Positions 2,135-37,385 of a stretch of 37,385 bases of DNA are shown here, one piece after another. The stretch comes from a virus. The stretch is from the IMG/VR virus record IMGVR_UViG_3300008110_000297, positions 1 through 37,385 of that record; one strand, 5' to 3'. A program made the position numbers and the translations under genes. A model generated the notes under the pieces. That model was not told the DNA's origin, did no database searches, and worked only from the letters and a program-made list of their open reading frames with translations. Every line of letters begins with the position of its first letter. The first letter of the stretch is position 1.

Positions 2135-2406
2135 TGGCTCGTAAGGAACGCCTAACAGAAGAACAACTAAATACCCGTTTACGGTTCGTGATTGGTGTAG
2201 TGCTTGCTGCTGTGTTGGCTGGCACTATGGGATCGGTATTGTATTCTTTGATTTATGTGACTCAACCTATGGAGCAGTCCCCGAACGATAAAGCATTTTT
2301 TGATTTGATCACCCCGATTGCAACGTTCCTTGTTGGAACGTTGTCGGGTGTGATGATTTCTAATTCTAATAATAAGAAAGATAAGGAACCTAATGGCGAA
2401 CACTAA
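2134..2406 (+). CDS. Two-helix membrane protein, holin-like
   Basis: A 90-residue protein with two predicted membrane segments, about residues 17-41 (FVIGVVLAAVLAGTMGSVLY) and 57-75 (DLITPIATFLVGTLSGVMI), and charged ends (ARKERLTEE at the N-terminus, KKDKEPNGEH at the C-terminus). This size and topology match class II holins or small phage membrane proteins. It follows a lipoprotein by one-base overlap, so a lysis role is plausible. A second holin-like gene lies at 5473-5673, so which of them times lysis cannot be decided here. Confidence 0.65.
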   Translation: MARKERLTEEQLNTRLRFVIGVVLAAVLAGTMGSVLYSLIYVTQPMEQSPNDKAFFDLITPIATFLVGTLSGVMISNSNNKKDKEPNGEH

Positions 2407-3466: not shown

Positions 3467-5047
3467 ATGGAATTAACTGACCTTCTCAACGAGAAGGAAT
3501 GGAGGATCTGCAAAGGTCCAGAAAACGCTACCAACGAGGAACTCGTTGATGCTTTCGTCTATTTCTGCTCAAACTACTGGTTCATTAAACATCCTGAAAA
3601 GGGTCGTATTAAGTTTGAGATGCGTGAAGCACAGATTGAAACTGTGGCTGCATGGATAGATAACCGTTATAGTATCGTGCTGAAGGCACGACAGATCGGT
3701 TTCTCTACACTGGCTAGCGCCTACGTGTTCTGGGTCACGTTCTTTTGGAAAGACCGATTTGTGATCATGCTAAGTCGTACTGAACGTGAAGCAATGAAAC
3801 TGTTAGCAAAATCCAAATACGGATTTAAGTTCCTACCCAAGTGGATGGTGCTACGTGGTCCTAGCATCATTGATAACAACCAACTAAAAATGTCGTTCTC
3901 TAACGAATCTGCTATTGAATCATTACCATCAGGTAACGACCCTGCTCGTGGTGAATCAGTATTCTTGGTTGTAGTTGACGAAATGGCTTTCTTGCCTAAC
4001 AGTGATGAAGCATGGGCTTCTATTGAACCAATTGCCGACGTTGGTGGACGAGTCATTTGCCTCAGTACCGCCAACGGCGAAGGCAACATTTTTCATGAAC
4101 TGTGGGTTGGTTCCCAAACAGGGAACAACCAGTTCAAGGGCGTGTTCTTCCCTTGGTCTGCATCTGACCGTGACGACGAATGGTATGAGGCTAAGAAACG
4201 CCAACTGCCTGACTGGCAGTTAGCGCAAGAATACCCAAGCGACCCTGATGAGGCTTTTATTCGCTCTGGGCGCCCCGTATTTGACATTGATGCTCTACGA
4301 GCCTTAGAAGTAGAAGAACCTGCTAGGGGCTACATCCATGTTTATTCGGATAAACATATTGAGTTTCGTGAGGATGGTGGGGAACTAGCCGTCTGGCAGT
4401 TCCCTGAGACTGGTGGAATCTACTGTATTGGGGCTGACGTTGCCGAAGGCTTAGGTCATGGCGACTACAGCACAGCACACGTAATTAATGGTTACACACA
4501 GGAAGTTGTAGCGCACTGGCATGGTCACATTGACCCCGACCTTTTTGGCGAACACGTCCTATATAACTTAGGTTTGTTTTACCACGGTGCCCTAGTCGGT
4601 GTTGAATCTAACAACCACGGTTTAACAACATTGAAGGCTTTGCAACGTACTGGCTACAAAAACATTTTCCGTCAACGTCGTTTGGCTCAACGTACACCTG
4701 TTGCTACAGAAATTTTGGGTTGGCGAACTACAGCAGCGTCTAAACCTTTGGCTATTGACGAACTAAACGGAGTTATCCGTGACGGTTTACTGGATCTTAG
4801 GTGTGAACGAACGATTGCTGAAATGCGAACGTTCATTCGTGAAGCCAATGGCAAAACCCATGGTTCTCCCCATGATGACCGTGTCATGTCTTTGGCTATT
4901 ACGAACCAAATGTTGAAATACATTTGGATGCCAGAGTATCAGATTTCTCAAGAACCACCCAAGAACAGTATGGCTTGGTGGTCTAGGCATCTACCTAGCA
5001 AACAGGAACCAAAGTTTGTTATGGGTTCATTCGCATCAAGAACGTGA
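3467..5047 (+). CDS. terL: Terminase large subunit
   Basis: A 526-residue packaging motor with ATPase and nuclease domains. The ATPase has an adenine/Walker A region at residues 73-81 (KARQIGFST), Walker B with catalytic acid at 165-172 (VFLVVVDE), and the coupling motif STAN at 200-203. The RNase-H-like nuclease shows Asp-324 (IGADVAEG), Glu-380 (GVESNNHG) and Asp-470/471 (SPHDDRV). Together these drive DNA translocation into the prohead through the portal and cut the concatemer. Length and motif order are normal. TTTAGGAAC provides the ribosome-binding site before the ATG. Confidence 0.95.
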   Translation: MELTDLLNEKEWRICKGPENATNEELVDAFVYFCSNYWFIKHPEKGRIKFEMREAQIETVAAWIDNRYSIVLKARQIGFSTLASAYVFWVTFFWKDRFVIMLSRTEREAMKLLAKSKYGFKFLPKWMVLRGPSIIDNNQLKMSFSNESAIESLPSGNDPARGESVFLVVVDEMAFLPNSDEAWASIEPIADVGGRVICLSTANGEGNIFHELWVGSQTGNNQFKGVFFPWSASDRDDEWYEAKKRQLPDWQLAQEYPSDPDEAFIRSGRPVFDIDALRALEVEEPARGYIHVYSDKHIEFREDGGELAVWQFPETGGIYCIGADVAEGLGHGDYSTAHVINGYTQEVVAHWHGHIDPDLFGEHVLYNLGLFYHGALVGVESNNHGLTTLKALQRTGYKNIFRQRRLAQRTPVATEILGWRTTAASKPLAIDELNGVIRDGLLDLRCERTIAEMRTFIREANGKTHGSPHDDRVMSLAITNQMLKYIWMPEYQISQEPPKNSMAWWSRHLPSKQEPKFVMGSFASRT

Positions 5048-16928: not shown

Positions 16929-17870
16929 ATGACTAAGGATGAACTTCGAGCATTATTGATGATGTTAACTCCAGAGGAGTTAACAAACTATGCCAACTCT
17001 GGTACGCAGGAACCTTTTATTGACGAAGGAAGAATGCGTTTATTTGCACGTGGTGGTGATGTTGGTCGTGCTGCAGAACAAATTTATGGTTACATTGATA
17101 ACGGTGCTGATCCTATTACTGCTGCTAGAGAGTTTGTAGAAATACAACCACAGGAATTTCCTCAGATGGATCCTGCTATGGTTTCTGATATTGCTGACAC
17201 TATTGCTAAAAGTGCTGTTGGTATGGCTAAGTACAAGGGCGATATGCCTAGTCAGACGGATCAGTTGGATAAACTTGGTTTGGGTTCTTTGGCGCCTTTG
17301 CTTCAGTACACACAAAAAAGTGGTGGCAAAAATTATGCTAGTCCTACAAGTATGCAGGATACGTATAAAAGTATTCTTGGTAGAAACGTCAGCGAGGCTG
17401 ACCGTTTAAATAATCTTTTGTTTGAGGAATCTAAATCTAGTAAGAAGAAAGATTCTAATTATAAGAAAACTGGTGCTGCTGCTAGTGCTGCTACTGCTGC
17501 CACAATAATGTCAGGACTTGCTGCCGGTCTTGCACCAACAGGCATAGGTTTGCCTGCTTCTGCAGCATTGGCTCTTGGTGCAATCGGTACAGGTGTTCTG
17601 GGTAGCGCATTGGGCAACAGGGCTGCAGGTCCAGCCAAAAATGAGTACGGTTACACTAAGAAAGAGTTTGAGGCTGGTCGTACAAAGAAACTTAAAGATC
17701 TTGACGCTAAGAGTGCTAGGGCTTTGGCTAGTTTGGAAGCAGAACAAAAGAAGGCTATGGCTAGGCAACAGTTGTATCAGGATACGTATGATACAGAATT
17801 GGCTAAGTATAAGGTTCCATCCGAATTTGATATCCGCAAATCTCTTATGTTAAAGGTTTTAAATGGCTAA
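16929..17870 (+). CDS. Internal virion protein with membrane-like segment
   Basis: A 313-residue protein. The N-terminal half is helical and acidic and contains the loop EQIYGYIDNGADPITAAREF near residue 46. Around residues 178-235 is a long small-residue hydrophobic stretch (AATAATIMSGLAAGLAPTGI, then LPASAALALGAIGTGVLG), long enough to insert in a membrane. It ends with a charged coiled coil (KELKDLDAKSARALASLEAE-like). Internal proteins with such segments can form the channel for DNA crossing the cell envelope (inference from T7-type ejectosomes). The stop overlaps the start of the 2261-residue gene by eight bases. Confidence 0.65.
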   Translation: MTKDELRALLMMLTPEELTNYANSGTQEPFIDEGRMRLFARGGDVGRAAEQIYGYIDNGADPITAAREFVEIQPQEFPQMDPAMVSDIADTIAKSAVGMAKYKGDMPSQTDQLDKLGLGSLAPLLQYTQKSGGKNYASPTSMQDTYKSILGRNVSEADRLNNLLFEESKSSKKKDSNYKKTGAAASAATAATIMSGLAAGLAPTGIGLPASAALALGAIGTGVLGSALGNRAAGPAKNEYGYTKKEFEAGRTKKLKDLDAKSARALASLEAEQKKAMARQQLYQDTYDTELAKYKVPSEFDIRKSLMLKVLNG

Positions 17871-20800
17871 TGTTACTGAAAATGGTTTGCTATCTTACAT
17901 CAACAGTCGCACAGGAATGGCTACTGGTCCACGACCAGCAAGCCGACCTGCCTTAAATCCTAAGTTAGCGGAACAATATAGTCAACTACAGCAGCGGGCT
18001 AGTACCGCTAAAAGCACTCCGGGTATTGCTGGCAATAACGGTTTGATGGAATACATCAACCGTGTTTCTAACACTAGTATTCCTAAACCTAAGAAGTTGA
18101 ATGCTGCACAGAAGGTGTTGTCTAATAAGGCTGTCAAGACTGCTTTGATGCCTTTGCAGGTTCTTGATATTCCTAGACGTACTGTTGTTTCTGGTTTGAA
18201 AGAACTTTATGACACTGCTTCTGGTGAGGGTGGTGCAAGTCTAAAAGATTTTGGTAAACAAATTGCTAATCCTACTTTTGGTGTAGGTGACTTTGTTGAT
18301 ACTGGCAACAAGTGGCAGGATCGTATTCTTGGATTTGTTGGTGACGTTGCTCTTGACCCTACGACTTACGCTACTTTGGGTGCTGGTCGTTTTGCTGGTT
18401 TGACAGGAAAACTTGCTCTTGTTTCTGAACTTGGTGTAAAGGGCGGTGCTGAGGATCTGTTACGACGGGCTGGGGCTAGAGGTCTTGCTGGCTTAACTGA
18501 TGCGGAACGTGTTGCATATAACCTGCCACGGGCAGGTCTATATGTTGCTGGTGGACGTTTGCCTTCTACTGGTCGTATTGGTGGCGCTTTAGAAGAAGGT
18601 CTTGCTGCAATTAACCAAGGTCTTGCTAAGAGCAAGGTTGGTACTGCTTTCCGTAATGCTCGTGTTGATGAGGGTACTAAGGAAATTGCTACTGGTTTGC
18701 GTACAGGCAAATTTACTGGCGGTATGGATGCTAGAAAATCTGCTGCTGTTCTTAACATGCGTAATGTTAGGGCTGGTGTTACTGGAAGAACTCTTGCTGA
18801 AATAGATCAAGAACTTGTACCGGTAATTGACGAGATCAGAAACTTTGGTGACACTACAGAACTTACGCATCTACTTGAGGCTGGCGATCTTAGCAATCCT
18901 GTTTTGCAGAACACTAGAACTTGGCTTGATAATACTAGGAATCGTTTGCTTGATGCTGGTGTTCCAGAGGACGAAGTTGGTTACATTGTAAACTACGTTC
19001 CTCACGTTCATACTGATGAAATGTTTAGTATTCTCAGTAAAGAAACACCTTTTGCTAAATCGTATCGTGAACAAACTGGTGTAAGTGTTAACGAACTTCG
19101 TGCACCTAGCCTTACTAAATCTCGAGGAATGTTCCAACCTGATGTTGAATACATTATTGGTGGAAAAGTATTAAAGTTTAAGACTGGTTCTATTAAAGAA
19201 GTTAACGAAGTATTTTCCCGAGAGTTCCCTGAACTCGCAGGCAAAAAAGTTCTTAGAGACGATCTTGATGCTTTGTTAACTGGTTATGGTGCGCAGGTTG
19301 CTCAAGGTGTTGGTGCTAAGGCTGGAGCAGATTCTCTTGTTACTTTCGGTGATGACATCGGCAGGGTTTCTGCTGATGCCATGGTTGATGTTGCTGATAT
19401 TGATGCCAACAAAGTTCTTGTTGGCAAACTTGAAGAGTCAGCAAAAGCAGCAAACAAAAAGAACACTGATCTTCGTGCACAACTTAAAGCCAAATATAAA
19501 GACATCGGCAAAGGTGTTGAAACTTTCCTAGTTGGGCGTAAAGCAGTTTTGAACACTGAACAGGCTGCATTAAAAACAGAGTTTGATGCTATTTCTGCTG
19601 CAGGTTTTGCTGAAGCAAAAGATCTGCAGTCACAGTTGGCTGACATAGAACAGTTTTCTCTTCGTGCACAAAAAGAATTAGATGATGCTATTGCAGAAAA
19701 CTCTCGTGCTGCTGTAGATGCCGAAGCCGTTGGTTCTGTTATAAATGCAGACAACCCTATTATTAAGGCTGCTAATGATCGTTTGGAATCTGCTCAACAT
19801 TTTGTTGATCAGATTTCAATTATGAAGGCAGAACTTCAAGACACGATTAAACAGTTGGACAACATTAAACTTCCTAGGATTTCTGATCTTCCGGAAGAAG
19901 TGCAGGCTGCTTTAAGAAAAACAACAAACGTTACTGGTGATGTCCCTATTGATGACATGACTATGCAACTACACAATATCTCTGGAAAGATGAAAAACTC
20001 GCAACCTCATGTGCGTAAGGCTTTCCAACAGTTTTTAAATCGTTTTGCTGGATCAGCAAAAGTTGTTGAAAATGTTTCTGCAAAAGTTTCTAGAGGTTTG
20101 CAAGAGTTACGTGCTTTTGATGACGAAGTTGTTCGTCAACTAAAAGTTTTTAAAGATTATGCTCCAAGAGATTTAGCAACTGGTGCTGTTGGACGCAAAA
20201 CAAAACAATTAGAAGAACTGATGAATAACCGTTCTGTATTTTTGGAAGATCTTTCAGATATCAGGCAAAGAATTGCTCGTGAATCTAGACTTCCTACTGA
20301 GGCTGAAAGTGCCTACATTGAATTAGCGACTAAAAATATTGCTGATTTAGAGAAAAAAATAGAACCACTATATTTTGAAAGTGTTGATGTTCCTACGCAG
20401 GAAGTTATTGATGGTTTGGCTAAGCAACGTCAGGCTCTTGTTACAAAAATAAAAGAAACCGCCAGACAAGATATGAAAGCATATCTTGATGGCATTCCTG
20501 TTGACTATCAGACTAAAGTTCAGATTGCCGAGCAGTTCCAAAGGCATGTTGATATTCACATACAGTCTGGTGCTTTGAAGGATCGTATTATCAACAAAGT
20601 AAACATTGATGATAATACTGCTCGTTCTTTGGCTGCTGAAGCAGAAGCAGCAAACAGATCTCTTGATGCATCTACACGCCAGTTGCGTTTAACCATTGAC
20701 TTTACTCAACGCTACAAGAATGTAGTTGAGGCTATTAGAACCAACGCTGAGGCGTATGCCATTGCCGGTTTGCCACCAATGAAATACAACAAGGCTCATA

Positions 20801-23800
20801 TAGAAAGTCTTGTTGCTAAAGAAGTTTTGGTTTCAGAAACAAAACGTTTGAAAGAAGTACGCAGAGGTCTTTTAAATATTTTGGATACCATTGCTACTGA
20901 GCAGGCAGATGGTGTTGTTTCTTCTGCAAGGCAACGAGTTGGTTTGGATCAAGTAGATGCTGCTACTGAAAAGGCAGCAAAATTAAGCAGTACTAACAAG
21001 AGGCGTATTCTTTCTTCTAATGCTGCTGATGACATGAAAGCCAGAACAAACCTTGTTGAAGGTTTGATGGAAAATATTCGTGATAGAAGAAAACAAATCA
21101 ACGCAATTGCTGCCGAAGGCAAAACAAGGGTTGATGAAGTAAATGTTAGGTATGGTATTGAAGCAGGTTATGCTGATGATGCTGATTATGCTGGAAACTT
21201 TTTTTATAAGAATAGAGTTGCAGAGTCGGCAGATCTTTCTGCTTTGAATAAAGAAGATTTTGATCTTATTACCCAACTTCTTTTTGGTGATGGTCCATTG
21301 CCTGAAGGTTGGAGTATAAGTTTTATTGAAAAAGAAATCTTAAAAGGTAACAAGGTTGATTCACAAAAAGTAATGAAACTTGTTCAAACAAGGTTTGAAA
21401 CTGTTCTTACAGATCCAGTCACAGGCAAAGCAAGAACTGTTCTCAATACACCACCTAGTGCTAAGGCTCTTAAAGCAAAGTTAAACGAACCAGCAAGTCT
21501 TATTGATGGTCAAAGATTTTTGGATGCACAGGTTGCTGCTATATGGGAAGAAGTAACTAACAACACTAGAATGATTCGTGATCTTGACCGTCGTTCTGCA
21601 GCATTGGGTAGACAATTTTCTGGTGACCACTTGTATGACGTGACTAATGCTCCTGTACGTATTGACATTCTTGAAAAAGAATTGCCAAAGTTAAATGCTG
21701 AAAAGAAAGAAATTACTAAAACTATTTTGCCTGAGATTGGTAAAGAACGTGCTGCTTTGGCTAGGCGTACTGGTCCTAGGGAACTTGTTGACGACACTAT
21801 GCCTAAGGATCTTTCTGGCCGTTTAGAGATATTGAAGCAAAAACGTAAAGAGCGTTTAGCGTTAAACGAAAAAGAATTGCAGTCAACTGGAAGGTTTGAG
21901 TCAGCCAGACTTCAGGAAATGAAAAGGGAAGCATCTGATATTAATAACGAGATTCAGTTGCTTGAAGAACTCCAAAAACTTTTTGACGACTTAAACAAGT
22001 TTAAGGGTCAAAAAAACAAAGCATACGTTCGCACCCAAATTGCTGAGCATCCTATGATGCAAGGAAAGGTTGGTTCGGACGAACTGGAATTCATGATCAA
22101 AAGAGAACAACAGTTCCGGACAAGACTTGTTGAAATTGATAGAACATTAAAAAGCCATGGTGATGAACTGGCTTATCTTAAGGGTTTCTCTAGCGCACCT
22201 ACAGGTCCGAGTGGACGTGGTGTAATTCAGGCTGACTGGCAAGAAGTGATGTTCGGTAAAGGTAGTGTTTCTAGAGCAAAATTAAATTTTAAGGCTAGAA
22301 CAGAACTTGAAATTGTTAAAGCCGAATTAGAACGCAAACTTTCATTGCAAAATGCTGGTGAGGTTAAATCACGAATTGAAACCATTCGTGCTGCTTCTAA
22401 AAATGCTAGAGGCAAAACGGCTGTTAACGCTGAGATTAAAACTATCAAGCAAGAAATATCTGATCTTGAAAAGCAGTTGGCTTTACCAAAGCCAGACAAT
22501 GTTATGCCTATTGTCCATGGCAAAAATCAATCTATTCTTAGAAAGAAAATTGCTAAGGCTCAAGAAAGACTTGCTGCTTTGGATGCTGAAAAGGGGCTTA
22601 AGGAAAGTAGTGGTGCAGAAATTAAGTTGCTTCAACAACAACTTGATGGTGGCGCAGAGAAGTCTGCACAAGCAGAGTTGGCTGTAGCACGAGAAGAAAG
22701 CAATAATCTTAACGGTGATGTACTTGCTGCTAACCGCAGGTTAGAAGATGCTCAATCTCAGATTGATAACAAAAATTTGCAAGACCTGAGCACGTTTGAT
22801 GATAAAACACGTGCGCTTATGGAGCAAAAGAAATCTGTTGAAGCACAACTTAGTACAACATACAACTTGTCTAAAGGCAATAACGAAGCATATGATATTG
22901 CTAGAGCAAGACTTCAAGAACAACTGAAGAACATTAATGATGCGATGGCTGAAGCAATGGCTGTGCCTAAACTCAGGGATGCTTCTGGCAAGTCTGTTTC
23001 TAACGTACAGTTCCTAGACGAAGGTCGTGTGTGGCTGGATGAGGCTCAAGCATTAACTGATCCTGCAAAATACTGGGCAACTGTACACGGTCAAGATCTG
23101 GCTAATGCTCCTGCGGATGTAGTTGCCAACTTGGTTCGTGATGCAAATATTACCGCTAGGGCTTACTGGGGTGGACCTAACGTTGCTGACCAATATGCTT
23201 TGCTTGGGTTGCAGGCATCATCTCCTGAACGTGACGCATTGTTAGTGATGATTCAAGAAGCACATGCTCTTGAAGCACAACTAACTTTGTCCACTATGGC
23301 ACAGGCAAACTTCAATACAATGATTCAGTCAGCAAAGAGCAACAGCCTTGGGGCTGTTGTTAAACAACAGATTATGGATGGTTGGACAGACATTGCTAAG
23401 ACTGGTGTGGCTGTACCAAAAGAAATTAATGACGCTATGACACGTGTTCTTCGTCTTGACCGTCCTGATGAATGGTCTAAGTTCTGGGACAGTTGGAACC
23501 GTTACACTGACGTGTTTAAAGCGTATGCTACGCTTTCACCACGTTTCCATATCCGTAACGGTATGTCTGCAACGTTCATGAACTTTGCCGACGGTGTTGC
23601 CTTCACAGACATGAAGAAGGGTGTTAACTATTGGCGAGAGTTCCGTAACGATCCTAAGGGATGGTTGAGCAAGATACCTAAGGAAGAACAACAACTTGCT
23701 TTGCAGGCTGTAGATGCAGTATTTGCTTCTGGTGGTGGACGTTACAGTGACTTCCAAATTGGCACTAGAGGAACAAGGAACAGAGTTGTTGCTAAGTCAC

Positions 23801-24648
23801 GTCAAATTGGTACCAGTGTTGAAGGCTTTGTCCGCATGGGTATGGCTTTGGATACTATTCGTGCTGGTGGTTCAGTGAACGAAGCAGCAGCACGTATTAC
23901 ACGTGTTCATTTCAACTACAGCCAAGTGTCTACAGTTGATGCGCAAGTCAGAAAGGTTATTCCTTTCTGGACTTTCATGAGTCGCAACATTCCGTTGCAG
24001 GTTCAACAGATGTGGACTAAGCCACGTGCGTACCAGATCTACAACTCGTTTGTCCGCAACTTTGCTGGTGCACCTAACGGTGATGTTGTCCCTGATTACT
24101 ATGGTGATCAGGGTGCATTTAAGTCTCCTGTTGGTAGTGGCTATATTGTTCCTGACTTGCCTTTCACTAAGATTGGTCAGGACATACAGGATATTGCTAG
24201 TCCAACGAAACTTCTTGCTAGTTCTAACCCGTTACTGAAGGGTCCGGCAGAGTTTATTTCTGGCAAAAACTTCTTTACTGGTGCTCCTAATAGCACAGAG
24301 ATGAAAGAGTTGACTGGTCCGATGTCTGCTCTTGCTCCACTGTTGAATATGTTGGGTGAGGGTGCTACTGGTGCTGGTGGTCAGAACATGGCTACTGCAC
24401 GTTCGCAACAGTTGCTCAGGTCGTTGACACCATTGTTGAACACTGGTGAACGTCTCAGTGGTACTGGGTCTACTGATCCTGCTACGCAGATGCAAAACAT
24501 ATTGAACTTCTTTATTGCGTCACCGTATAAGAACATTCCGCAGGGTGCACAGGAAGGCGACTTGTACGCTAGAGAACGTTTGATTAACGAACTGTTGGCT
24601 AAACAAAAACAATTAGGTTTTACTCCAGATAGAGGTAGGGGATTATAA
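17863..24648 (+). CDS. Giant internal virion (ejection) protein
   Basis: A 2261-residue protein, nearly one fifth of the window. Residues 6-18 and 59-71 hold a repeated motif, NGLLSYINSRTGM and NGLMEYINRVSNT, joined by a basic linker. Around 150-185 is LGFVGDVALDPTTYATLGAG, seen in large internal proteins of short-tailed phages. From about 500 to 1700 the sequence is mostly long coiled coil (Lys-, Glu-, Gln- and Leu-rich). A more globular C-terminal part includes WSKFWDSWNRYTDVFKAYAT at about 1870 and VRKVIPFWTFMSRNIPLQVQ near 2030, similar to ends of other phage ejection proteins. No lysozyme or protease motif was seen. It probably travels into the host with DNA. Confidence 0.8.
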   Translation: MANVTENGLLSYINSRTGMATGPRPASRPALNPKLAEQYSQLQQRASTAKSTPGIAGNNGLMEYINRVSNTSIPKPKKLNAAQKVLSNKAVKTALMPLQVLDIPRRTVVSGLKELYDTASGEGGASLKDFGKQIANPTFGVGDFVDTGNKWQDRILGFVGDVALDPTTYATLGAGRFAGLTGKLALVSELGVKGGAEDLLRRAGARGLAGLTDAERVAYNLPRAGLYVAGGRLPSTGRIGGALEEGLAAINQGLAKSKVGTAFRNARVDEGTKEIATGLRTGKFTGGMDARKSAAVLNMRNVRAGVTGRTLAEIDQELVPVIDEIRNFGDTTELTHLLEAGDLSNPVLQNTRTWLDNTRNRLLDAGVPEDEVGYIVNYVPHVHTDEMFSILSKETPFAKSYREQTGVSVNELRAPSLTKSRGMFQPDVEYIIGGKVLKFKTGSIKEVNEVFSREFPELAGKKVLRDDLDALLTGYGAQVAQGVGAKAGADSLVTFGDDIGRVSADAMVDVADIDANKVLVGKLEESAKAANKKNTDLRAQLKAKYKDIGKGVETFLVGRKAVLNTEQAALKTEFDAISAAGFAEAKDLQSQLADIEQFSLRAQKELDDAIAENSRAAVDAEAVGSVINADNPIIKAANDRLESAQHFVDQISIMKAELQDTIKQLDNIKLPRISDLPEEVQAALRKTTNVTGDVPIDDMTMQLHNISGKMKNSQPHVRKAFQQFLNRFAGSAKVVENVSAKVSRGLQELRAFDDEVVRQLKVFKDYAPRDLATGAVGRKTKQLEELMNNRSVFLEDLSDIRQRIARESRLPTEAESAYIELATKNIADLEKKIEPLYFESVDVPTQEVIDGLAKQRQALVTKIKETARQDMKAYLDGIPVDYQTKVQIAEQFQRHVDIHIQSGALKDRIINKVNIDDNTARSLAAEAEAANRSLDASTRQLRLTIDFTQRYKNVVEAIRTNAEAYAIAGLPPMKYNKAHIESLVAKEVLVSETKRLKEVRRGLLNILDTIATEQADGVVSSARQRVGLDQVDAATEKAAKLSSTNKRRILSSNAADDMKARTNLVEGLMENIRDRRKQINAIAAEGKTRVDEVNVRYGIEAGYADDADYAGNFFYKNRVAESADLSALNKEDFDLITQLLFGDGPLPEGWSISFIEKEILKGNKVDSQKVMKLVQTRFETVLTDPVTGKARTVLNTPPSAKALKAKLNEPASLIDGQRFLDAQVAAIWEEVTNNTRMIRDLDRRSAALGRQFSGDHLYDVTNAPVRIDILEKELPKLNAEKKEITKTILPEIGKERAALARRTGPRELVDDTMPKDLSGRLEILKQKRKERLALNEKELQSTGRFESARLQEMKREASDINNEIQLLEELQKLFDDLNKFKGQKNKAYVRTQIAEHPMMQGKVGSDELEFMIKREQQFRTRLVEIDRTLKSHGDELAYLKGFSSAPTGPSGRGVIQADWQEVMFGKGSVSRAKLNFKARTELEIVKAELERKLSLQNAGEVKSRIETIRAASKNARGKTAVNAEIKTIKQEISDLEKQLALPKPDNVMPIVHGKNQSILRKKIAKAQERLAALDAEKGLKESSGAEIKLLQQQLDGGAEKSAQAELAVAREESNNLNGDVLAANRRLEDAQSQIDNKNLQDLSTFDDKTRALMEQKKSVEAQLSTTYNLSKGNNEAYDIARARLQEQLKNINDAMAEAMAVPKLRDASGKSVSNVQFLDEGRVWLDEAQALTDPAKYWATVHGQDLANAPADVVANLVRDANITARAYWGGPNVADQYALLGLQASSPERDALLVMIQEAHALEAQLTLSTMAQANFNTMIQSAKSNSLGAVVKQQIMDGWTDIAKTGVAVPKEINDAMTRVLRLDRPDEWSKFWDSWNRYTDVFKAYATLSPRFHIRNGMSATFMNFADGVAFTDMKKGVNYWREFRNDPKGWLSKIPKEEQQLALQAVDAVFASGGGRYSDFQIGTRGTRNRVVAKSRQIGTSVEGFVRMGMALDTIRAGGSVNEAAARITRVHFNYSQVSTVDAQVRKVIPFWTFMSRNIPLQVQQMWTKPRAYQIYNSFVRNFAGAPNGDVVPDYYGDQGAFKSPVGSGYIVPDLPFTKIGQDIQDIASPTKLLASSNPLLKGPAEFISGKNFFTGAPNSTEMKELTGPMSALAPLLNMLGEGATGAGGQNMATARSQQLLRSLTPLLNTGERLSGTGSTDPATQMQNILNFFIASPYKNIPQGAQEGDLYARERLINELLAKQKQLGFTPDRGRGL

Positions 24649-25878: not shown

Positions 25879-26090
25879 TTGTGACCTGCGTTCATTGATG
25901 ACCGCATACGCCCCTCAATACTAAGAGCAGTTTCTTCTAGTGCTTTAGCGGATTCTTCACCGTAAGTGAATTCAATGAAGTACAGGATTGCAATGATTTG
26001 TGATGCAAGCCATGGTGCGTCAATGACCATTGGGGCTTCTTGTTCTGATTGTTCTTCTTGTGGTTCTTGTGGTTCTAGTTCATTCGTCAT
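25875..26090 (-). CDS. Small acidic early protein
   Basis: A 71-residue protein with a Glu/Gln-rich N-terminus (NELEPQEPQEEQSEQEAP), then a hydrophobic helix (WLASQIIAILYFIEFTYG) and a short helical tail. The hydrophobic part is about 18 residues and could be a membrane segment or a dimer interface. It overlaps the sigma-like gene upstream by 11 bases. Unknown function. Confidence 0.65.
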   Translation of the reverse strand: MTNELEPQEPQEEQSEQEAPMVIDAPWLASQIIAILYFIEFTYGEESAKALEETALSIEGRMRSSMNAGHN

Positions 26091-26478
26091 CGTAATCTCC
26101 TAGTGATGTTCTTTCAGTCAGTCTTTTGAGGATTGTTGGGTTGCTTAACATTATACCTTTAAGATTTGCGTAAGCAGCATCTCTTAGTCGGGAAGCGTGC
26201 ATTCTTGACACGCCGAGACGGTCACCTAGGACTTGCAGTGTGACTCGCTCAGAATTGATTGAATCAATTATGTAGCGGTCTTGCTCCCCTAGTTGTTCCA
26301 TACATTCGGCTACCGCCTCACGAAAAGGTTGTAGTTCTTCTAACGACTCTTCAGGTTCGGCATACGGGGCAGCAGACATTAACGCCTCCATGGGTGTTAA
26401 TGGTCTGCCTGCACCGATGTCGTGACTATCTAGGTAAGCGTCTAGTGACACTGCCCTAATTGGTTGTGCTTCATTCAT
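26080..26478 (-). CDS. Sigma region-4-like transcription factor
   Basis: A 132-residue protein with a sigma-70 region-4-like DNA-binding domain at about residues 55-110: EAVAECMEQLGEQDRYIIDS, then VTLQVLGDRLGVSRMHASRL, a helix-turn-helix of the type that reads a -35 element. The first 50 residues are different from sigma region 2, and no -10-binding region is present. It therefore probably works with host RNA polymerase as an activator or partial sigma factor, perhaps switching to late genes (inference). It overlaps the nuclease gene upstream by four bases. Confidence 0.75.
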   Translation of the reverse strand: MNEAQPIRAVSLDAYLDSHDIGAGRPLTPMEALMSAAPYAEPEESLEELQPFREAVAECMEQLGEQDRYIIDSINSERVTLQVLGDRLGVSRMHASRLRDAAYANLKGIMLSNPTILKRLTERTSLGDYDDE

Positions 26479-33017: not shown

Positions 33018-33229
33018 TCTTTCTCCTTTATGTTTTTTGTTATGGAACCTAAACCCAGCATTTCAATGGTAGAGAATGGCACATAGTGCCATGTCTCCCT
33101 CCACTTTATACCTTCGTAATCAACTACAACGACTTGGAGATCCATCAAATTGACCCCTGTCTCTTCATAGTTTGTAACCGTTACAAGCCCCCTACGGGTG
33201 GCTATCTGCATATTACACTTGATAGACAT
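33014..33229 (-). CDS. Small early protein, beta-rich
   Basis: A 71-residue protein from ATG 33229, or 65 residues from ATG 33211, which lies directly after the amidotransferase stop. Neither start has a strong ribosome-binding site. The sequence includes RRGLVTVTNYEETGVNLMDL and VVVVDYEGIKWRETWHYVPF, a pattern of short strands, and ends with a charged tail. It is coupled to the amidotransferase gene by overlap, so the two may share expression. Function unknown. Confidence 0.6.
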   Translation of the reverse strand: MSIKCNMQIATRRGLVTVTNYEETGVNLMDLQVVVVDYEGIKWRETWHYVPFSTIEMLGLGSITKNIKEKE

Positions 33230-34190
33230 CAATTTGTTCCACCCCCTCGTCGGTAGAGAACTTGAGTGAACTGTAGTTTGGTGGTGTCGGAACATACTCG
33301 TTGTTGCACCACAAGATCACCTCATCTTGAGTCATCTTGCGATAGAACGGTTCGTAGTCCTCGTCAAAGTCATTCTCCCAACACTTGCAGTCTTGCTTTG
33401 TCCAACCGCACCACATACATGAGTCACAAGTACGACACTCGTGCACGTCCTCGTTAACAAGATCGTAAACCTCGTTAGTACCGCAGAACGGACACTCAAC
33501 CTCGTACATATCACCGTACCAATCCTCATCATCGTCTAACAGATAAGGATCCTTAGGTGTGCGTGAAGTGTAGGTGTTGGCAGTCCACGAACCATACGAA
33601 CTGTAACCGTATGCTGAACGTGCAGGTGCAGGTGTGTAACAGTACGAATAGTTACTCCACCACACGCCATCAGTCCAGTGACCGTCTTTCTCGTTGAGAA
33701 TATAGTACTCAGAGTTCGCATGACGGTCGGCAGTAAGCACAACCAACTTGGAACCCTTAGCCCAATTCTCTAGAGATGCACGAACAGTGTGATCGTCCAG
33801 AGCATACACGCCACCCAACGATGGCAGATACTCTGAAGCAAAGATGTTCGTGTCACTACGATTGTCACCTACAGCGGGTTTGATGGGCAGAATGCCGTTG
33901 TGACCAACGACAGTCAGATCATCAGTACCGACCTTGAACGGGTGGCAATTCGTGGTGTCAGTAACACCATGAGTTGTGATCCGTGAATGAAATATGGCAT
34001 GACCTTTGAAACGTGAACGAACGTCATAGAAACGATCAACCACTTCCTCAAAGTTCATACCCTTGCCAGTGACGATGTGATCCCCCATGTGAACAGCGAA
34101 ACCAAAACCATCATCATTGTAAATAGCACCATTGCGTAGATCTTCAATGTCTACGTCAATGCCACTAGGAATAAAAGTTAATAAACACAT
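33213..34190 (-). CDS. Class II glutamine amidotransferase
   Basis: A 325-residue Ntn-hydrolase. The N-terminal residue after Met is the catalytic Cys-2 (MCLLTFIPSG). Other conserved sites are Arg-70 and the surrounding HAIFHSRITTHG, Asn-81 in TNCHPF, the oxyanion motif HNGI at 97-100 and Asp-113 in NRSDTNIF. It should release ammonia from glutamine, or use a related amide. A C-terminal part has two cysteine clusters (CPFCGTNEVY, then CRTCDSCMWCGW and CKCW), likely zinc-bound and unusual for this family. GAGG lies before the ATG. The gene follows the amidoligase gene across a hairpin leader. Confidence 0.85.
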   Translation of the reverse strand: MCLLTFIPSGIDVDIEDLRNGAIYNDDGFGFAVHMGDHIVTGKGMNFEEVVDRFYDVRSRFKGHAIFHSRITTHGVTDTTNCHPFKVGTDDLTVVGHNGILPIKPAVGDNRSDTNIFASEYLPSLGGVYALDDHTVRASLENWAKGSKLVVLTADRHANSEYYILNEKDGHWTDGVWWSNYSYCYTPAPARSAYGYSSYGSWTANTYTSRTPKDPYLLDDDEDWYGDMYEVECPFCGTNEVYDLVNEDVHECRTCDSCMWCGWTKQDCKCWENDFDEDYEPFYRKMTQDEVILWCNNEYVPTPPNYSSLKFSTDEGVEQIDVYQV

Positions 34191-34208
34191 TCGGTATACC
34201 TCTTTCCG

Positions 34209-34228
34209 GCAACAACAACGGTTGTTGC
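34209..34228 (-). promoter_or_regulatory. Hairpin near amidotransferase ribosome-binding site
   Basis: GCAACAAC and GTTGTTGC form a perfect 8-base stem with a 4-base loop in the leader of the amidotransferase gene. It ends a few bases before GAGG and may control access to the ribosome-binding site. Confidence 0.45.
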
Positions 34229-34269
34229 TACCATTATTTTTTGTTGAACGATGCGACTACTGGGTGTTG

Positions 34270-34309
34270 GGCACACCAAGATATACCCTAAGGTATAACT
34301 TGATGTGCC
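34270..34309 (-). ncRNA. UUAG-loop hairpin, copy 1 (amidotransferase leader)
   Basis: Arms of 18 bases pair around a UUAG loop in the minus-strand transcript. There is one U-U mismatch (position 12) and one G-U wobble (position 7). It starts seven bases after the amidoligase stop and ends about 80 bases before the amidotransferase ATG. No U-tract follows, so it does not look like a simple terminator. It is one of four related copies. Confidence 0.75.
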
Positions 34310-34316
34310 ACCACCA

Positions 34317-35783
34317 TTAGTAACTAGAGCGTGCATCGGAACGCTTGATTAGTGACACAAGATTGTCGTACTTGGGGTCATGTTCAACCCAATCAGCAAA
34401 CGCATTGAAGTCCATCTTGTGATGTTCTTTGAGTTTGCCAATACGGTCACTCTTAGTGTACGCCCACAAAGCATGGGTGAACTCTAGATAACCCAAAGCA
34501 CGATTAGGGTTCAACGCACCACTGAAGCAACGCAACTCAATAGTGTGCTGGTTGCGACAGTTCACTGCAACACTGCGGTCACCATACGAACGGTGACGTG
34601 CATAGCCGTAGATGTTGTCTAACTCCGTATCAGTGATGGAACCGTAATGACTGTTCCGTGAACTGATGCGAGTCATCGCATTTACGTTGTGATAGATGAA
34701 CGACAAGAACCCGTAAAGATGCGGGCTTGAACTTGTACGTTCATGCAAACGCTTAGTGTAGAAAGCGTTGCGGTTGATATGGATATGGAAACCAACATCG
34801 TGGTTCAAGTTAGGGTTGTGATACTTGTACGAACGGAAACCATACTGGCTAAGTTGCCTGAATGGTGACCAGTCAAAATGGTTCTGATACATATCAAGCG
34901 TATGAGGTTGCGTAACAATCTCAAAGCCATCATGCAATGAACCATCTTCCTTGAGGTACAGGTGTTCCTTGTCAATCATGTTCTGAAAGAAACTTGCACC
35001 ATGATACAGATCACACTGCTCCGACTCAGTCTCGCATTCAAAGCCCATCATTGGTTCGTGAACAAACTCTGAGCGGTTGAAACGATGCTGAGAACGGATC
35101 ATGTTCGGCATATCAGTATCACGGTCACCCGTCATACCAACAAAGAAGATGCGGTCATTAGCATCACGCATAGCACTGTAATTTAGAATGATGCTACGTG
35201 GATCGTTGCAGTCACATGGTGGCTCATCATCTTCATGATAAGTCTCATCACAGACCTCACAACTAGTAACACGGTTCTCGTAACAGCAATGACAGTAGTA
35301 GTCGTCTCTACGACCATAACTGTCAAATACGTAATAGTCACCATCAGATACGTTGAGTACGTCACCGCACCCAGCGCATTCTCTGGCATCTTCCTCACAC
35401 GCCGTACACAATGTGATACCCGAAAACGTTGTGCCACTAAGACGCACAGGTTCCTCACACCATTCACATTCATCAGTGCAACTAGGGCACAATGAAGTCA
35501 TGATGTAATCCCTCTGCCCCTGTAGAACAGACGAAGCAACAATGTTTTCAGGATCATGAACCCGAGGAACCAACCTAGTCTCGTAAGAACGTAGGAAGTT
35601 CATGTGCTCATGATGTCGTGAACTATTGCAATCGGCACATTGAACCACAGCGTACTGTGGGAAATGTGGACGATCACTATAGTCCATCGGCACCGTGTGC
35701 TGGCTCAAGTACGTGCGGTAAGCCGCATGACCATGATGCTCAATAATTCTGTCCCCGAGGGACATATGTGTTCCGTTAGGCAT
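34317..35783 (-). CDS. Zinc-ribbon amidoligase-like protein
   Basis: A 488-residue protein in two parts. Residues 49-192 hold about nine CxxC-type pairs (for example CADC, CPSC, CEWC, CTAC, CAGC, CHCC, CEVC), a chain of zinc ribbons. Residues 245-440 carry the amidoligase signature: GFECETE (247-253), LKEDGSLHDGFEIVTQP (277-293), GFHIHINR (331-338), TIELRCFSG (414-422) and LEF (433-435). These acids and histidines match the putative amidoligase fold, a glutamine-synthetase-like enzyme which would join an amine to a carboxylate using ATP. AGGAG precedes the ATG. Next to a glutamine amidotransferase, it may modify proteins or peptides. Confidence 0.78.
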   Translation of the reverse strand: MPNGTHMSLGDRIIEHHGHAAYRTYLSQHTVPMDYSDRPHFPQYAVVQCADCNSSRHHEHMNFLRSYETRLVPRVHDPENIVASSVLQGQRDYIMTSLCPSCTDECEWCEEPVRLSGTTFSGITLCTACEEDARECAGCGDVLNVSDGDYYVFDSYGRRDDYYCHCCYENRVTSCEVCDETYHEDDEPPCDCNDPRSIILNYSAMRDANDRIFFVGMTGDRDTDMPNMIRSQHRFNRSEFVHEPMMGFECETESEQCDLYHGASFFQNMIDKEHLYLKEDGSLHDGFEIVTQPHTLDMYQNHFDWSPFRQLSQYGFRSYKYHNPNLNHDVGFHIHINRNAFYTKRLHERTSSSPHLYGFLSFIYHNVNAMTRISSRNSHYGSITDTELDNIYGYARHRSYGDRSVAVNCRNQHTIELRCFSGALNPNRALGYLEFTHALWAYTKSDRIGKLKEHHKMDFNAFADWVEHDPKYDNLVSLIKRSDARSSY

Positions 35784-35837
35784 TGTATTCTCCTTTGTTT
35801 ATGTTTGTTTTATGTTCCACCATGATTAGTGGAGTTG

Positions 35838-35877
35838 AACACACCAAGATATACCCTAAGGTATAACTTGGTGTGCT
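35838..35877 (-). ncRNA. UUAG-loop hairpin, copy 2 (amidoligase leader)
   Basis: The same 18-base arms and UUAG loop as copy 1, with the U-U mismatch at position 12 and a G-U wobble at position 2, where copy 1 has G-C; position 7, a wobble in copy 1, is C-G here. It lies 54 bases before the amidoligase ATG and begins about 14 bases after the predicted transcription start. Confidence 0.78.
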
Positions 35878-35897
35878 CTCACCAGTAACCATCTTAC

Positions 35898-35926
35898 AGT
35901 ATACCACCTACAGTGGTCATACCCAA
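35898..35926 (-). promoter_or_regulatory. Candidate sigma-70-like promoter for amidoligase
   Basis: On the minus strand TTGGGT (35921-35926) and TATACT (35898-35903) are separated by 17 bases; the -10 box matches five of six consensus bases. It starts just after the stop of the upstream gene. RNA would begin near 35891, so hairpin copy 2 would lie at the start of the leader. Confidence 0.5.
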
Positions 35927-35927
35927 C

Positions 35928-36362
35928 CTAGCCCATATTGTCAATATATTGCATCATTCTATCTACGTAATCACTAGCGGTCTTTTCACCTAAATCAATG
36001 AACCCCATATCTCTATAGTTGTCCAATTCTTGCCATGCTTCGCACAAGTCGTTAATGAGAACATCAAGAGATCTAATTTTACCCAGAACAGCATTTGGTC
36101 TATTAGCACTGTACTTTTTCAACAATTGACTGAACTCATCATCGCTTTCTTCAAAAGCAAAAACAATAGTTAACTCGTTGTCGGAACGGTATAAACTAGA
36201 ACAAATGTCCTTTATCTCAAGCCGTTGACCGTATAACCTGTCAGCAATATCTTGTTGCAACTCACGTTGATCACGCAACAATCTTTCAGCAGTGTACTTT
36301 TCCTCACACAACGCTGAGATTTTGCTTTCAATAGCAAGCATACATTCTTTTACTTTTTGCAT
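35928..36362 (-). CDS. Coiled-coil accessory protein
   Basis: A 144-residue protein, mostly helical. The first 60 residues form a coiled coil (MLAIESKISALCEEKYTAER, then LRDQRELQQDIADRLYG), followed by a beta-like segment (NELTIVFAFEESDDE) and a second helical part ending in DYVDRMMQYIDNMG. No enzyme motif is seen and no family is recognised. AAAGAGAAAAT lies before the ATG. The gene has its own hairpin leader (copy 3) and is followed by the amidoligase transcript. Confidence 0.7.
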   Translation of the reverse strand: MQKVKECMLAIESKISALCEEKYTAERLLRDQRELQQDIADRLYGQRLEIKDICSSLYRSDNELTIVFAFEESDDEFSQLLKKYSANRPNAVLGKIRSLDVLINDLCEAWQELDNYRDMGFIDLGEKTASDYVDRMMQYIDNMG

Positions 36363-36402
36363 TATTTTCTCTTTCTATTTTGTCCACCGATTAGTGGAGT
36401 CG

Positions 36403-36452
36403 GGCACACCAAGATATACCCTAAGGTATAACTAGGTATAACTTGATGTACC
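36403..36452 (-). ncRNA. UUAG-loop hairpin, copy 3 with 10-base duplication
   Basis: The same arms and UUAG loop; relative to copies 1 and 2 the arm carries a 10-base tandem duplication next to the loop (GGTATAACTA on the plus strand). G-U wobbles occur at positions 3 and 7. Alternative pairing of either repeat unit with the opposite arm is possible. It lies 40 bases before the 35928-36362 start. Confidence 0.7.
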
Positions 36453-36467
36453 CTCACCATCAACCAA

Positions 36468-36809
36468 TCACTTGAAACTGGTTCTACAAACTTTTCCTGT
36501 AAGCGTCCACCCTTTCCAAGCCTCACTTCCATCAACCAATATTTTGTTTCCATTCTTGTATTGGAGGAAAAGAAACTTTTTGCCCTTAGACGTATCCTTG
36601 TCAAAACTGTTTATAGCAGACAAATAGTTCTTTTTTGTTTCACCAGAACGATATACACCAATTTCTGAAATACCAATACCATTTGGTTCTGTTCTATACC
36701 ACAATTCGTCATTAGATATGTAAAGCATATGAATGAACCAAGAAACTTCTTGAATGGGAGTTGAGTTAACAGAATGTAATATTCGCACTCTTTCATTGTA
36801 GTAATACAA
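36468..36809 (-). CDS. Accessory protein, TTG start
   Basis: A 113-residue protein beginning at TTG 36809, with GGAGG seven bases upstream inside the end of the previous gene; this strong site supports the unusual start. The sequence has many aromatic and basic residues (YYYNERVRILHSVNSTPIQE, FLFLQYKNGNKILVDGSEAW) and looks like a small beta-barrel or OB-like fold. No family is recognised. It is coupled to the membrane protein gene upstream. Confidence 0.7.
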   Translation of the reverse strand: MYYYNERVRILHSVNSTPIQEVSWFIHMLYISNDELWYRTEPNGIGISEIGVYRSGETKKNYLSAINSFDKDTSKGKKFLFLQYKNGNKILVDGSEAWKGWTLTGKVCRTSFK

Positions 36810-36811
36810 AA

Positions 36812-37141
36812 CTAAACCTCCATTCCATAAGTAAGACGATTAAAGTCTCTCGTCGTATAATAATGATTTTCAATAGCGTTATCCCATTCCTTATACAACA
36901 CAACGCCAAGCACAATCATGCTTGCATGAACACAAGCAGAGAACACTACAGCAATAAACACTTGATCATTCCAAGTAAGATCACCACCAAGTGAAAAAAA
37001 CCAGTAGTTCGCATACATGGTGACACCCCACAATATGAGCCACATAAAAAATACTTGAGCACTAGTGTTGCGCTCAACCCTTGTGCGGTTCATAGCACTG
37101 TAGGCATCACGAATATCCTGCAAATGTTGTTTCTTATCCAT
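36812..37141 (-). CDS. Two-span membrane protein
   Basis: A 109-residue protein from ATG 37141, with AGAGAA upstream; a longer start is rejected because it would lie across the hairpin region. The N-terminal 28 residues are charged and helical (QHLQDIRDAYSAMNRTRVER). Two membrane segments follow, FFMWLILWGVTMYANYWFF and VFIAVVFSACVHASMIVLGV, joined by a loop of about 12 residues. Function unknown; superinfection exclusion is one possibility for an early membrane protein. Hairpin copy 4 is in its leader. Confidence 0.7.
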   Translation of the reverse strand: MDKKQHLQDIRDAYSAMNRTRVERNTSAQVFFMWLILWGVTMYANYWFFSLGGDLTWNDQVFIAVVFSACVHASMIVLGVVLYKEWDNAIENHYYTTRDFNRLTYGMEV

Positions 37142-37189
37142 TACATTCTCTTTTCTGTTAACTAAACACATTATTGTGAATAGTAGTGC

Positions 37190-37221
37190 AACCAAGATAT
37201 ACCCTAAGGTATATCTTGGTT
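37190..37221 (-). ncRNA. UUAG-loop hairpin, copy 4
   Basis: A perfect stem of 14 bases around the UUAG loop: AACCAAGATATACC and its exact complement. Here the position that is U-U in the other copies is an A-U pair. It lies 18 bases after the stop of the partial gene at the right edge and 48 bases before the membrane protein ATG. Confidence 0.8.
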
Positions 37222-37239
37222 ACGTACCACCAACAATAA

Positions 37240-37385
37240 CTACGACCAGAAATCAGTCACAGTCCTACCAGCAAGAATAGGCTTGTAGATGCCATCACCG
37301 AAATTGCCCACCAACACACGAGCACCCTTAGAGAACTCGTCGTTCAGATAAGCAAGACAATACTCAGCCTTGGCAAGATACGCAC
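37240..37385 (-). CDS. Partial protein at right edge, C-terminal end
   Basis: The last 47 residues of a gene running off the right edge: ...AYLAKAEYCLAYLNDEFSKG, then ARVLVGNFGDGIYKPILAGR and TVTDFWS. The frame has no other stop, and it is followed by hairpin copy 4, so it belongs to the same block. The start is outside the window. No family can be named from this portion. Confidence 0.7.
   Translation of the reverse strand, partial: AYLAKAEYCLAYLNDEFSKGARVLVGNFGDGIYKPILAGRTVTDFWS

Follow-up and report, generated by a model that had tools for sequence, protein, structure and literature searches.

Does a hairpin that recurs between the early genes of a phage act as folded RNA or as a binding site in DNA? 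The question is raised by IMG/VR record IMGVR_UViG_3300008110_000297, positions 1-37,385 (37,385 bp, hereafter the window), which by its gene content (terminase, portal, DnaB-like helicase, primase, RusA, and exonuclease) comes from an uncultured podophage. Four copies of an inverted repeat lie in its early block, and the original prediction, made from the sequence alone, took them for an RNA structure and not a DNA operator. We find two layers at these sites: a palindromic core, which is replaced between relatives along with one small gene, and a surrounding stem, which has the pairing pattern of RNA. We consider it probable that a diversifying early regulator uses the copies as stoperator-like operators, which sit at the tip of an intergenic mRNA hairpin that flanks movable genes. 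The separation into two layers, the swapping of palindromes, their association with the first early gene, the covariation, and the movement of cassettes rest on sequence, and it is from association, position, and structure that we infer protein binding, repression, and RNA cleavage.

The four repeats of the window

The 17-mer ATATACCCTAAGGTATA occurs exactly four times in the window, and a search allowing up to three mismatches gives eight matches (both strands), all at the same four sites, with 0.02 expected from shuffles. These sites are the four copies that had been predicted (34270-34309, 35838-35877, 36403-36452, and 37190-37221), and the 37,385-bp record holds no others, so the predicted confinement to the early block also holds. 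The next minus-strand start codons, with distances taken directly from the sequence, are 79, 54, 40, and 48 nt away, in agreement with an intergenic position 40-80 bases before each start. However, the hairpins sit directly after the preceding stop codon as much as ahead of the following start.

On the minus-strand transcript, the core arms of every copy form pairs that enclose CC-UUAG-GG. Copies 1-3 have U-U at one position where copy 4 has A-U, and departures from perfect pairing give five G-U and no A-C pairs in the contiguous ungapped stems, both as predicted. Two structural details needed revision. The proposed arms of 14-18 bases do pair, but the paired region is longer once internal loops are included. 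The UUAG, described as an invariant loop, is present in the sequence of all copies, but it is not the loop of copy 3, because the minimum-energy fold of that copy, which has a 9-10-nt duplication (TAGTTATACC), uses a 12-nt loop.

A standard terminator had been called unlikely, and we found neither a U-tract after the hairpins nor any terminator-like site. Consensus sigma-70 sites are absent at the four window hairpins. Known phage records gave no match for the window, and Rfam (4227 models) gave none in the window or in the L044 regions. The exact core has four matches in viral contigs, of which three are one coding sequence and the fourth is a lone intergenic occurrence in an unrelated 53-kb contig, and we take these as chance.

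Same slots, different palindromes

Helicase and exonuclease searches added about 120 loci (numbered with the prefix L) beyond the first two relatives. About 20 related podophages use the same early intergenic slots, each with a palindrome sequence that is specific to its lineage. For example, L012 and L013 have neighbour proteins 80-88% identical to those of the window and hairpins in the same slots, and the flanks AATGGTGAGAGCACA...TGTGTTCAACTCCACTAAT are conserved, yet their tip is ATAATCCCGA-NN(N)-TCGGGATTAT (six copies each), which differs from the window tip. L022 and L024 form a third clade near the window (DnaB 81%), with the palindrome CTTAGCG-N3-CGCTAAG. Orthologous sites with conserved flanks and different palindromes are found in three comparisons: the window with L012/L013, L077 with L078, and L022/L024.

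A scan of the loci for repeated palindromes gave one family per phage, located in the early region. The palindromes are 16-23 bp long and number 4-7 per phage (about 0 in shuffles), and their spacing is fixed within most phages. The families include AACTGATA(C), AACTGAGA, GTTGATAG, AACTGATAC, AAGTTGGT, TCTTTACA, GTGTAAGA, AGTAAGAC, TTGGAACG, and AAGTGGACAAC, plus others.

The distant relative MW202803.1 (L016), which is a public record, holds 26 copies of YGTTTC-N5-GAAACR against 1.4 expected. They span both transcription units, including gene interiors as checked against the annotated genes, and from this distribution the repeat is clearly a genome-wide, operator-like one. MW202803.1 is the only record for which we use the label "inside a gene", as these labels in our census come from a crude open reading frame caller; the census mislabels window copies 1 and 3 via short spurious open reading frames.

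An RNA stem around a palindromic core

The two layers can be told apart at the 16 sites of the window, L012, and L013. Twelve of these have an outer stem (arm-only z-scores of -1.6 to -4.2), and the remaining four have the palindrome alone (L012:3420 and 7491; L013:3476 and 7488), with positive z-scores. Across the 12 stem-bearing sites, the outer stem contains 257 pairs (212 Watson-Crick and 45 G-U), whereas the core contains 100 Watson-Crick pairs and no G-U. The sense strand is more stable than the antisense at 12/12 of them, but because some of the sites are orthologous to each other, they do not count as 12 independent trials. For copy 1, the nested fold has values of -35.5 (sense) and -31.4 (antisense), with a z-score of -3.35 for the outer arms. 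Seven sites share one architecture, and among their 12 outer pairs, five are changed on both sides; the stem architecture of copy 4 is common to L012:3924 and 4834 and to L013:3965 and 4832. In L022/L024, the sense strand is favoured at 5/5 long-stem sites. The palindrome arms of 16 relatives have no strand or RNA-type bias: their 766 cells comprise 741 Watson-Crick, 4 G-U, 10 A-C, and 11 other.

Strand-asymmetric tolerance had been read as the sign of a folded RNA as opposed to a DNA operator. That reading suits the outer stem, with its G-U pairs, compensatory changes, and better sense folding, but not the core, which has no G-U. The asymmetry that was noticed originates in the stem that surrounds the palindrome. 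The verdict "not a DNA operator" does not survive for the repeated tip, which occurs at stem-free sites, is replaced wholesale between relatives, tracks the first early gene (see below), and in MW202803.1 recurs genome-wide, at some positions within genes. Judged by these patterns, the palindromic tip behaves like an operator.

A candidate partner gene

The first early gene, which follows the first palindrome, encodes a protein of 130-175 amino acids (aa) that diverges rapidly and is predicted to be all-helical. Similarity between these proteins follows similarity between palindromes, even when corrected for two neighbour genes (0/5000 in a partial permutation test, which treats the phages as independent). 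L077 and L078 are ~94% identical as far as the first palindrome and once more beyond 3.6 kb, yet they have unrelated first genes and different palindromes, and on these alignments the pair is a natural swap of palindrome and first gene. Likewise, L066 and L142 have a neighbour gene that is 95% identical, yet they differ in both palindrome and first gene, while both are shared in L066/L135 and in L064/L142.

Where a palindrome is shared but the proteins are only 35-41% identical, a single short block is conserved. The L012/L013 pair keeps the block VKTIQNKI at 35% overall identity, and the L064/L142 pair keeps KAKTG.TLDKGD. In homologues that go with the CTTAGCG palindrome, another block occupies that position of the protein.

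By this association, the first-gene protein is a candidate DNA-binding regulator. We do not claim a helix-turn-helix, because AlphaFold plus Foldseek, used on two regulator types, found no known fold. Other possible trans factors were rejected: the conserved minus-strand gene of 142 aa and the genes of 89/103 aa beside the operon are 94-99% identical in pairs with differing palindromes.

It could also be that recognition takes place at the RNA level over the entire hairpin including its tip, with an RNase, a phage RNA-binding protein, or a regulatory RNA as the partner; the palindrome would then be only the apical stem, and the first gene would encode a lineage-specific RNA-binding protein. 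Consistent with this, window-group copies are all in transcribed gaps of one orientation, the outer stem is clearly RNA, many tips have tetraloop-like N4 centres, palindrome spacing differs between L012 and L013, and the regulator family has no recognised DNA-binding fold. We nevertheless think it unlikely, as the core arms do not tolerate G-U, do not covary within a phage, and are also found without an outer stem, while the repeats of MW202803.1 extend into coding regions of both operons.

RNA elements beside the palindromes

Most relatives have a separate hairpin beside the palindrome, of about 14-22 bp and with a UUCCCC-type loop, and in some it carries the UGA/AACU internal loop of window copy 2. 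In 12 aligned members, 14 pairs are 100% paired, with seven changed on both sides and one an invariant U-G. The covariation score was reached by 0/500 shuffles, and the sense strand is more stable in 26/26. There is no Rfam match, and this covarying RNA hairpin family is new to that database.

Model R1, made from relatives only, matches window copy 2 (E 0.0011) and copy 3 (E 0.028) on the correct minus strand, and the narrower model R2 matches copy 3 (E 0.018) and copy 1 (E 0.02); values in this range (0.001-0.03) are rough, and any strong hairpin scores slightly. We infer that the outer stem of the window is homologous to the C-rich-loop hairpin of the relatives, and that in the window's clade the palindrome came to sit at its tip.

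The window also contains a small hairpin of a different kind (GGTAGCAACAAC-C-GTTGTTGTTGCC, Table 1), which has G-U pairs on the transcript strand and is unrelated to the four copies. Its slot holds a palindrome-only copy in L012/L013. The adjoining 325-aa gene product resembles mycobacteriophage proteins (Table 1), a similarity that hints at an actinobacterial host.

Other RNA elements were found in relatives. A type II hammerhead with the full core TGAC-GAAA-CGCC-UUCG-GGCG-UA/A-stem I-CUGAUGA-GUCA lies in the early region of L077 (2408-2463, plus strand) and L078 (2468-2523, plus strand). Its score against Rfam Hammerhead_II is 32.2 bits (E 0.0005), below the gathering score of 37, and the pattern was absent from shuffled loci. 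A hammerhead-like element, GAAA-CGCC-GUGA-GGCG-UA-stem-CUGAUGA, directly follows a palindrome at L025:about 380-450 and L078:about 2200-2265 (plus strand); it has a mismatch at the base of stem II and no Rfam match. A mini-tRNA-like element also occurs after palindromes (L077:about 2860-2905; L078:about 2909-2955 and 4129-4175; plus strand); it combines a 7-bp stem resembling that of an acceptor (TGCGTAG/CTACGCA) with a hairpin resembling a T-arm (CGGG-TTCAATT-CCCG). ARAGORN detects no tRNA there, and the element could be an RNase P type processing site.

The RNase III sites in the early region of T7, also a podophage, are long stems that lie between genes of the transcript and contain internal loops. 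The long intergenic stems predicted here in a podophage early transcript (at least about 20 bp, with internal loops) are similar, and one could suppose that the copies are such processing sites only, i.e., a repeat that was spread by recombination and binds nothing specific. The polycistronic early region fits this, as does the L077/L078 hammerhead, which suggests that early mRNAs are cut between genes. We find this explanation hard to credit, because it does not account for the palindrome-only copies, the near-identical arms within a phage, the way relatives replace the palindrome wholesale, or its link to one gene. To our knowledge, the T7 sites have no phage-specific perfect palindrome in common and no linked regulator gene.

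Another possibility is that a phage activator or sigma-like factor acts at the palindrome and starts transcription in each gap, given that many sites lie 20-100 nt before early genes and that one protein of the window shows a weak match to sigma region 4. This is a doubtful proposition: promoter-like hexamers beside the sites are no commoner than chance, and as the window-group site is inside a transcribed, covarying stem, transcription must often start upstream of it. The 132-aa protein with the sigma match (Table 1) is possibly a second regulator. N4-type hairpin promoters were considered because of the 2261-aa virion-region protein, but this protein has no family match and the idea was dropped. 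A distant relative of it in MW202803.1 is annotated "chromosome segregation".

Gene cassettes between hairpins

Copies 3 and 2 flank a 144-aa gene (Table 1). Its homologue in L012 (4368-4799) lies between two other hairpins, and it is absent from L013. The 5' flank of copy 3 is orthologous to a single L012/L013 site (82% over 107 nt), and the 3' flank of copy 2 is orthologous to L012:5913 and L013:5912 (75% identical to L012), i.e., these flanks are the two sides of one single L012 site. The different location in L012, the absence from L013, and the split flanks therefore indicate that genes move between hairpin units, and for the 144-aa gene such cassette movement is supported by the alignments. 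Since the units are near-identical and intergenic, recombination between them would move genes as hairpin-flanked cassettes.

This recalls the PeSLs of T4-like phages, mobile cassettes of an early promoter and a terminator stem-loop (Arbiol 2010, Comeau 2014, cited in PMC4503421). As PeSLs are outlined in PMC4503421, intergenic stem-loops flanking moved early genes are common to both, but the hairpins here differ from that outline in having no promoter-like or terminator-like site and no U-tract. Repeats that are selfish or passive (REP- or PeSL-like mobile hairpins), homogenised by gene conversion, and without a regulator would suit units that flank moved genes and are conserved between non-orthologous neighbours, but they are a most improbable explanation of positions that are fixed over distant relatives, of one family per phage, and of a first gene that is tracked after neighbour correction.

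Table 1. Features of the window (nucleotide positions within its 37,385 bp)
Feature	Position	Strand	Evidence or remarks
2261-aa virion-region protein	17863-24648	+	no Pfam or PHROG match
132-aa protein	26080-26478	-	borderline sigma-70 region 4 match, 23.6 bits vs cut-off 24.1
325-aa protein	33213-34190	-	35-42% similar to mycobacteriophage proteins annotated glutamine amidotransferase
Separate hairpin	34208-34232	-	abuts Shine-Dalgarno of 325-aa gene; -9.2 kcal/mol
Copy 1, extended RNA stem with internal loops	34253-34324	-	directly after stop of 488-aa gene
Copy 1, palindromic core AGWTATACC-TTAG-GGTATATCT (putative operator)	34279-34300	-	exact repeat; Watson-Crick pairs plus one U-U
Copy 2, extended RNA stem with UGA/AACU internal loop	35822-35892	-	fold; covariance-model match
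Copy 2, palindromic core	35847-35868	-	exact repeat
144-aa gene	35928-36362	-	homologue 45% identity, E 1.6e-39
Copy 3, extended RNA stem	36389-36465	-	fold; matches by models R1 and R2
Copy 3, palindromic core, partial duplication alongside	36412-36433	-	exact repeat
Copy 4, extended RNA stem	37170-37240	-	8 bp / 1x1 mismatch / 7 bp / 1x2 loop / 16 bp
Copy 4, palindromic core, perfect arms	37195-37216	-	exact repeat

Comparison with known repeat systems

The stoperators of Cluster A mycobacteriophages are repeated, mostly intergenic sites that are not linked to promoters; their motif varies from phage to phage and correlates with the phage's own repressor, and this cognate specificity separates close relatives (PMC6550527, PMC9283540). 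They are 13-bp asymmetric sites, with 20-30 per genome, oriented with transcription and bound by a monomeric helix-turn-helix repressor, and the phages are temperate (PMC6550527, PMC9283540). The palindromes resemble them in that one motif has many copies, mostly intergenic and with no promoter-like sites. The motif here covaries with the first early gene, a candidate regulator by association. In contrast to the one-orientation stoperators, the sites here are symmetric, 16-23 bp long, and 4-7 per genome (26 in MW202803.1). Furthermore, unlike in Cluster A, the first-gene protein matches no helix-turn-helix repressor (Pfam, PHROG, PDB), no integrase was found, and in one clade the palindrome is nested in an RNA hairpin. 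The system may thus work like stoperators, yet it does not appear to be a member, given its symmetric sites and a protein that was not homologous by the searches made.

A second parallel is with the extended start-associated sequences (ESAS) of Cluster K mycobacteriophages, which are intergenic inverted repeats before genes with a subcluster-specific consensus (PMC3203893). These have imperfect 17-mer arms and a variable spacer and are tied to a start-associated sequence, and their source names no cognate gene and gives their function as unknown (PMC3203893). Both are lineage-specific inverted repeats with a short spacer before genes, but here the spacer is fixed within most phages. We noticed no start-associated box of the ESAS type beside starts, although no systematic search was made.

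Proposed mechanism

Under the explanation that we favour, i.e., stoperator-like operators in an mRNA hairpin, each copy would be a composite cassette between the genes of a polycistronic early operon, which is read on the minus strand. The tip would be the palindromic binding site, and its cognate would be the small protein from the first early gene, just downstream of the first palindrome, whose fast evolution would give rise to lineage-specific pairs of protein and palindrome. Being made first, this protein would bind both the leader of its own gene and the intergenic sites further along, and so damp or block early transcription. Stoperator-like action seems likeliest because the sites have no promoter and are located right after stops. 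Through rapid divergence in specificity, a phage would be able to escape the protein of a relative. The outer stem would be a structured mRNA element, most likely one for RNA processing or 3'-end stabilising, of the kind cut by RNase III, and the L077/L078 hammerhead in the same region lends support to a processing role.

Several points weigh against this explanation. The first gene was picked as the regulator after the data were seen, and its protein matches nothing in Pfam, PHROG, or PDB and shows no recognised DNA-binding fold. Because the contig lacks the window's own regulator gene, the pairing in the window rests on relatives. L077 and L078 also differ in a few further small early genes. 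Palindrome spacing is 2 in L012 and 3 in L013, which a rigid DNA dimer would not like, and it is possible that a protein binds the RNA hairpin. The independence assumed in the permutation test and the rough E-values of the window matches also belong here. Finally, a search of 12 records for a tyrosine integrase found none, so nothing points to lysogeny that a repressor could serve, and an immunity role would not be classical lysogenic immunity.

Implications

The G-U asymmetry that first drew attention to this locus calls for caution, as such asymmetry around a palindrome can arise from an RNA stem wrapped round a DNA site. The findings might also explain comparable orphan inverted repeats, ESAS among them, and they yield a testable protein/site pair, a natural swap (L077/L078), and a recognition block to mutate.

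Slots that are kept while the palindrome and one small gene are rewritten are the mark of a specificity system under diversifying selection. A bolder idea, which we put forward only tentatively and rate as rather improbable in full, is that these virulent-looking podophages have a rapidly diversifying self/non-self recognition: a small, first-expressed protein would recognise a lineage-specific palindrome in DNA, possibly also the mRNA tip, and would couple transcription damping to RNA processing at cassettes where early genes are shuffled. If true, this self/non-self system would be an immunity-like barrier between co-infecting relatives that operates without lysogeny.

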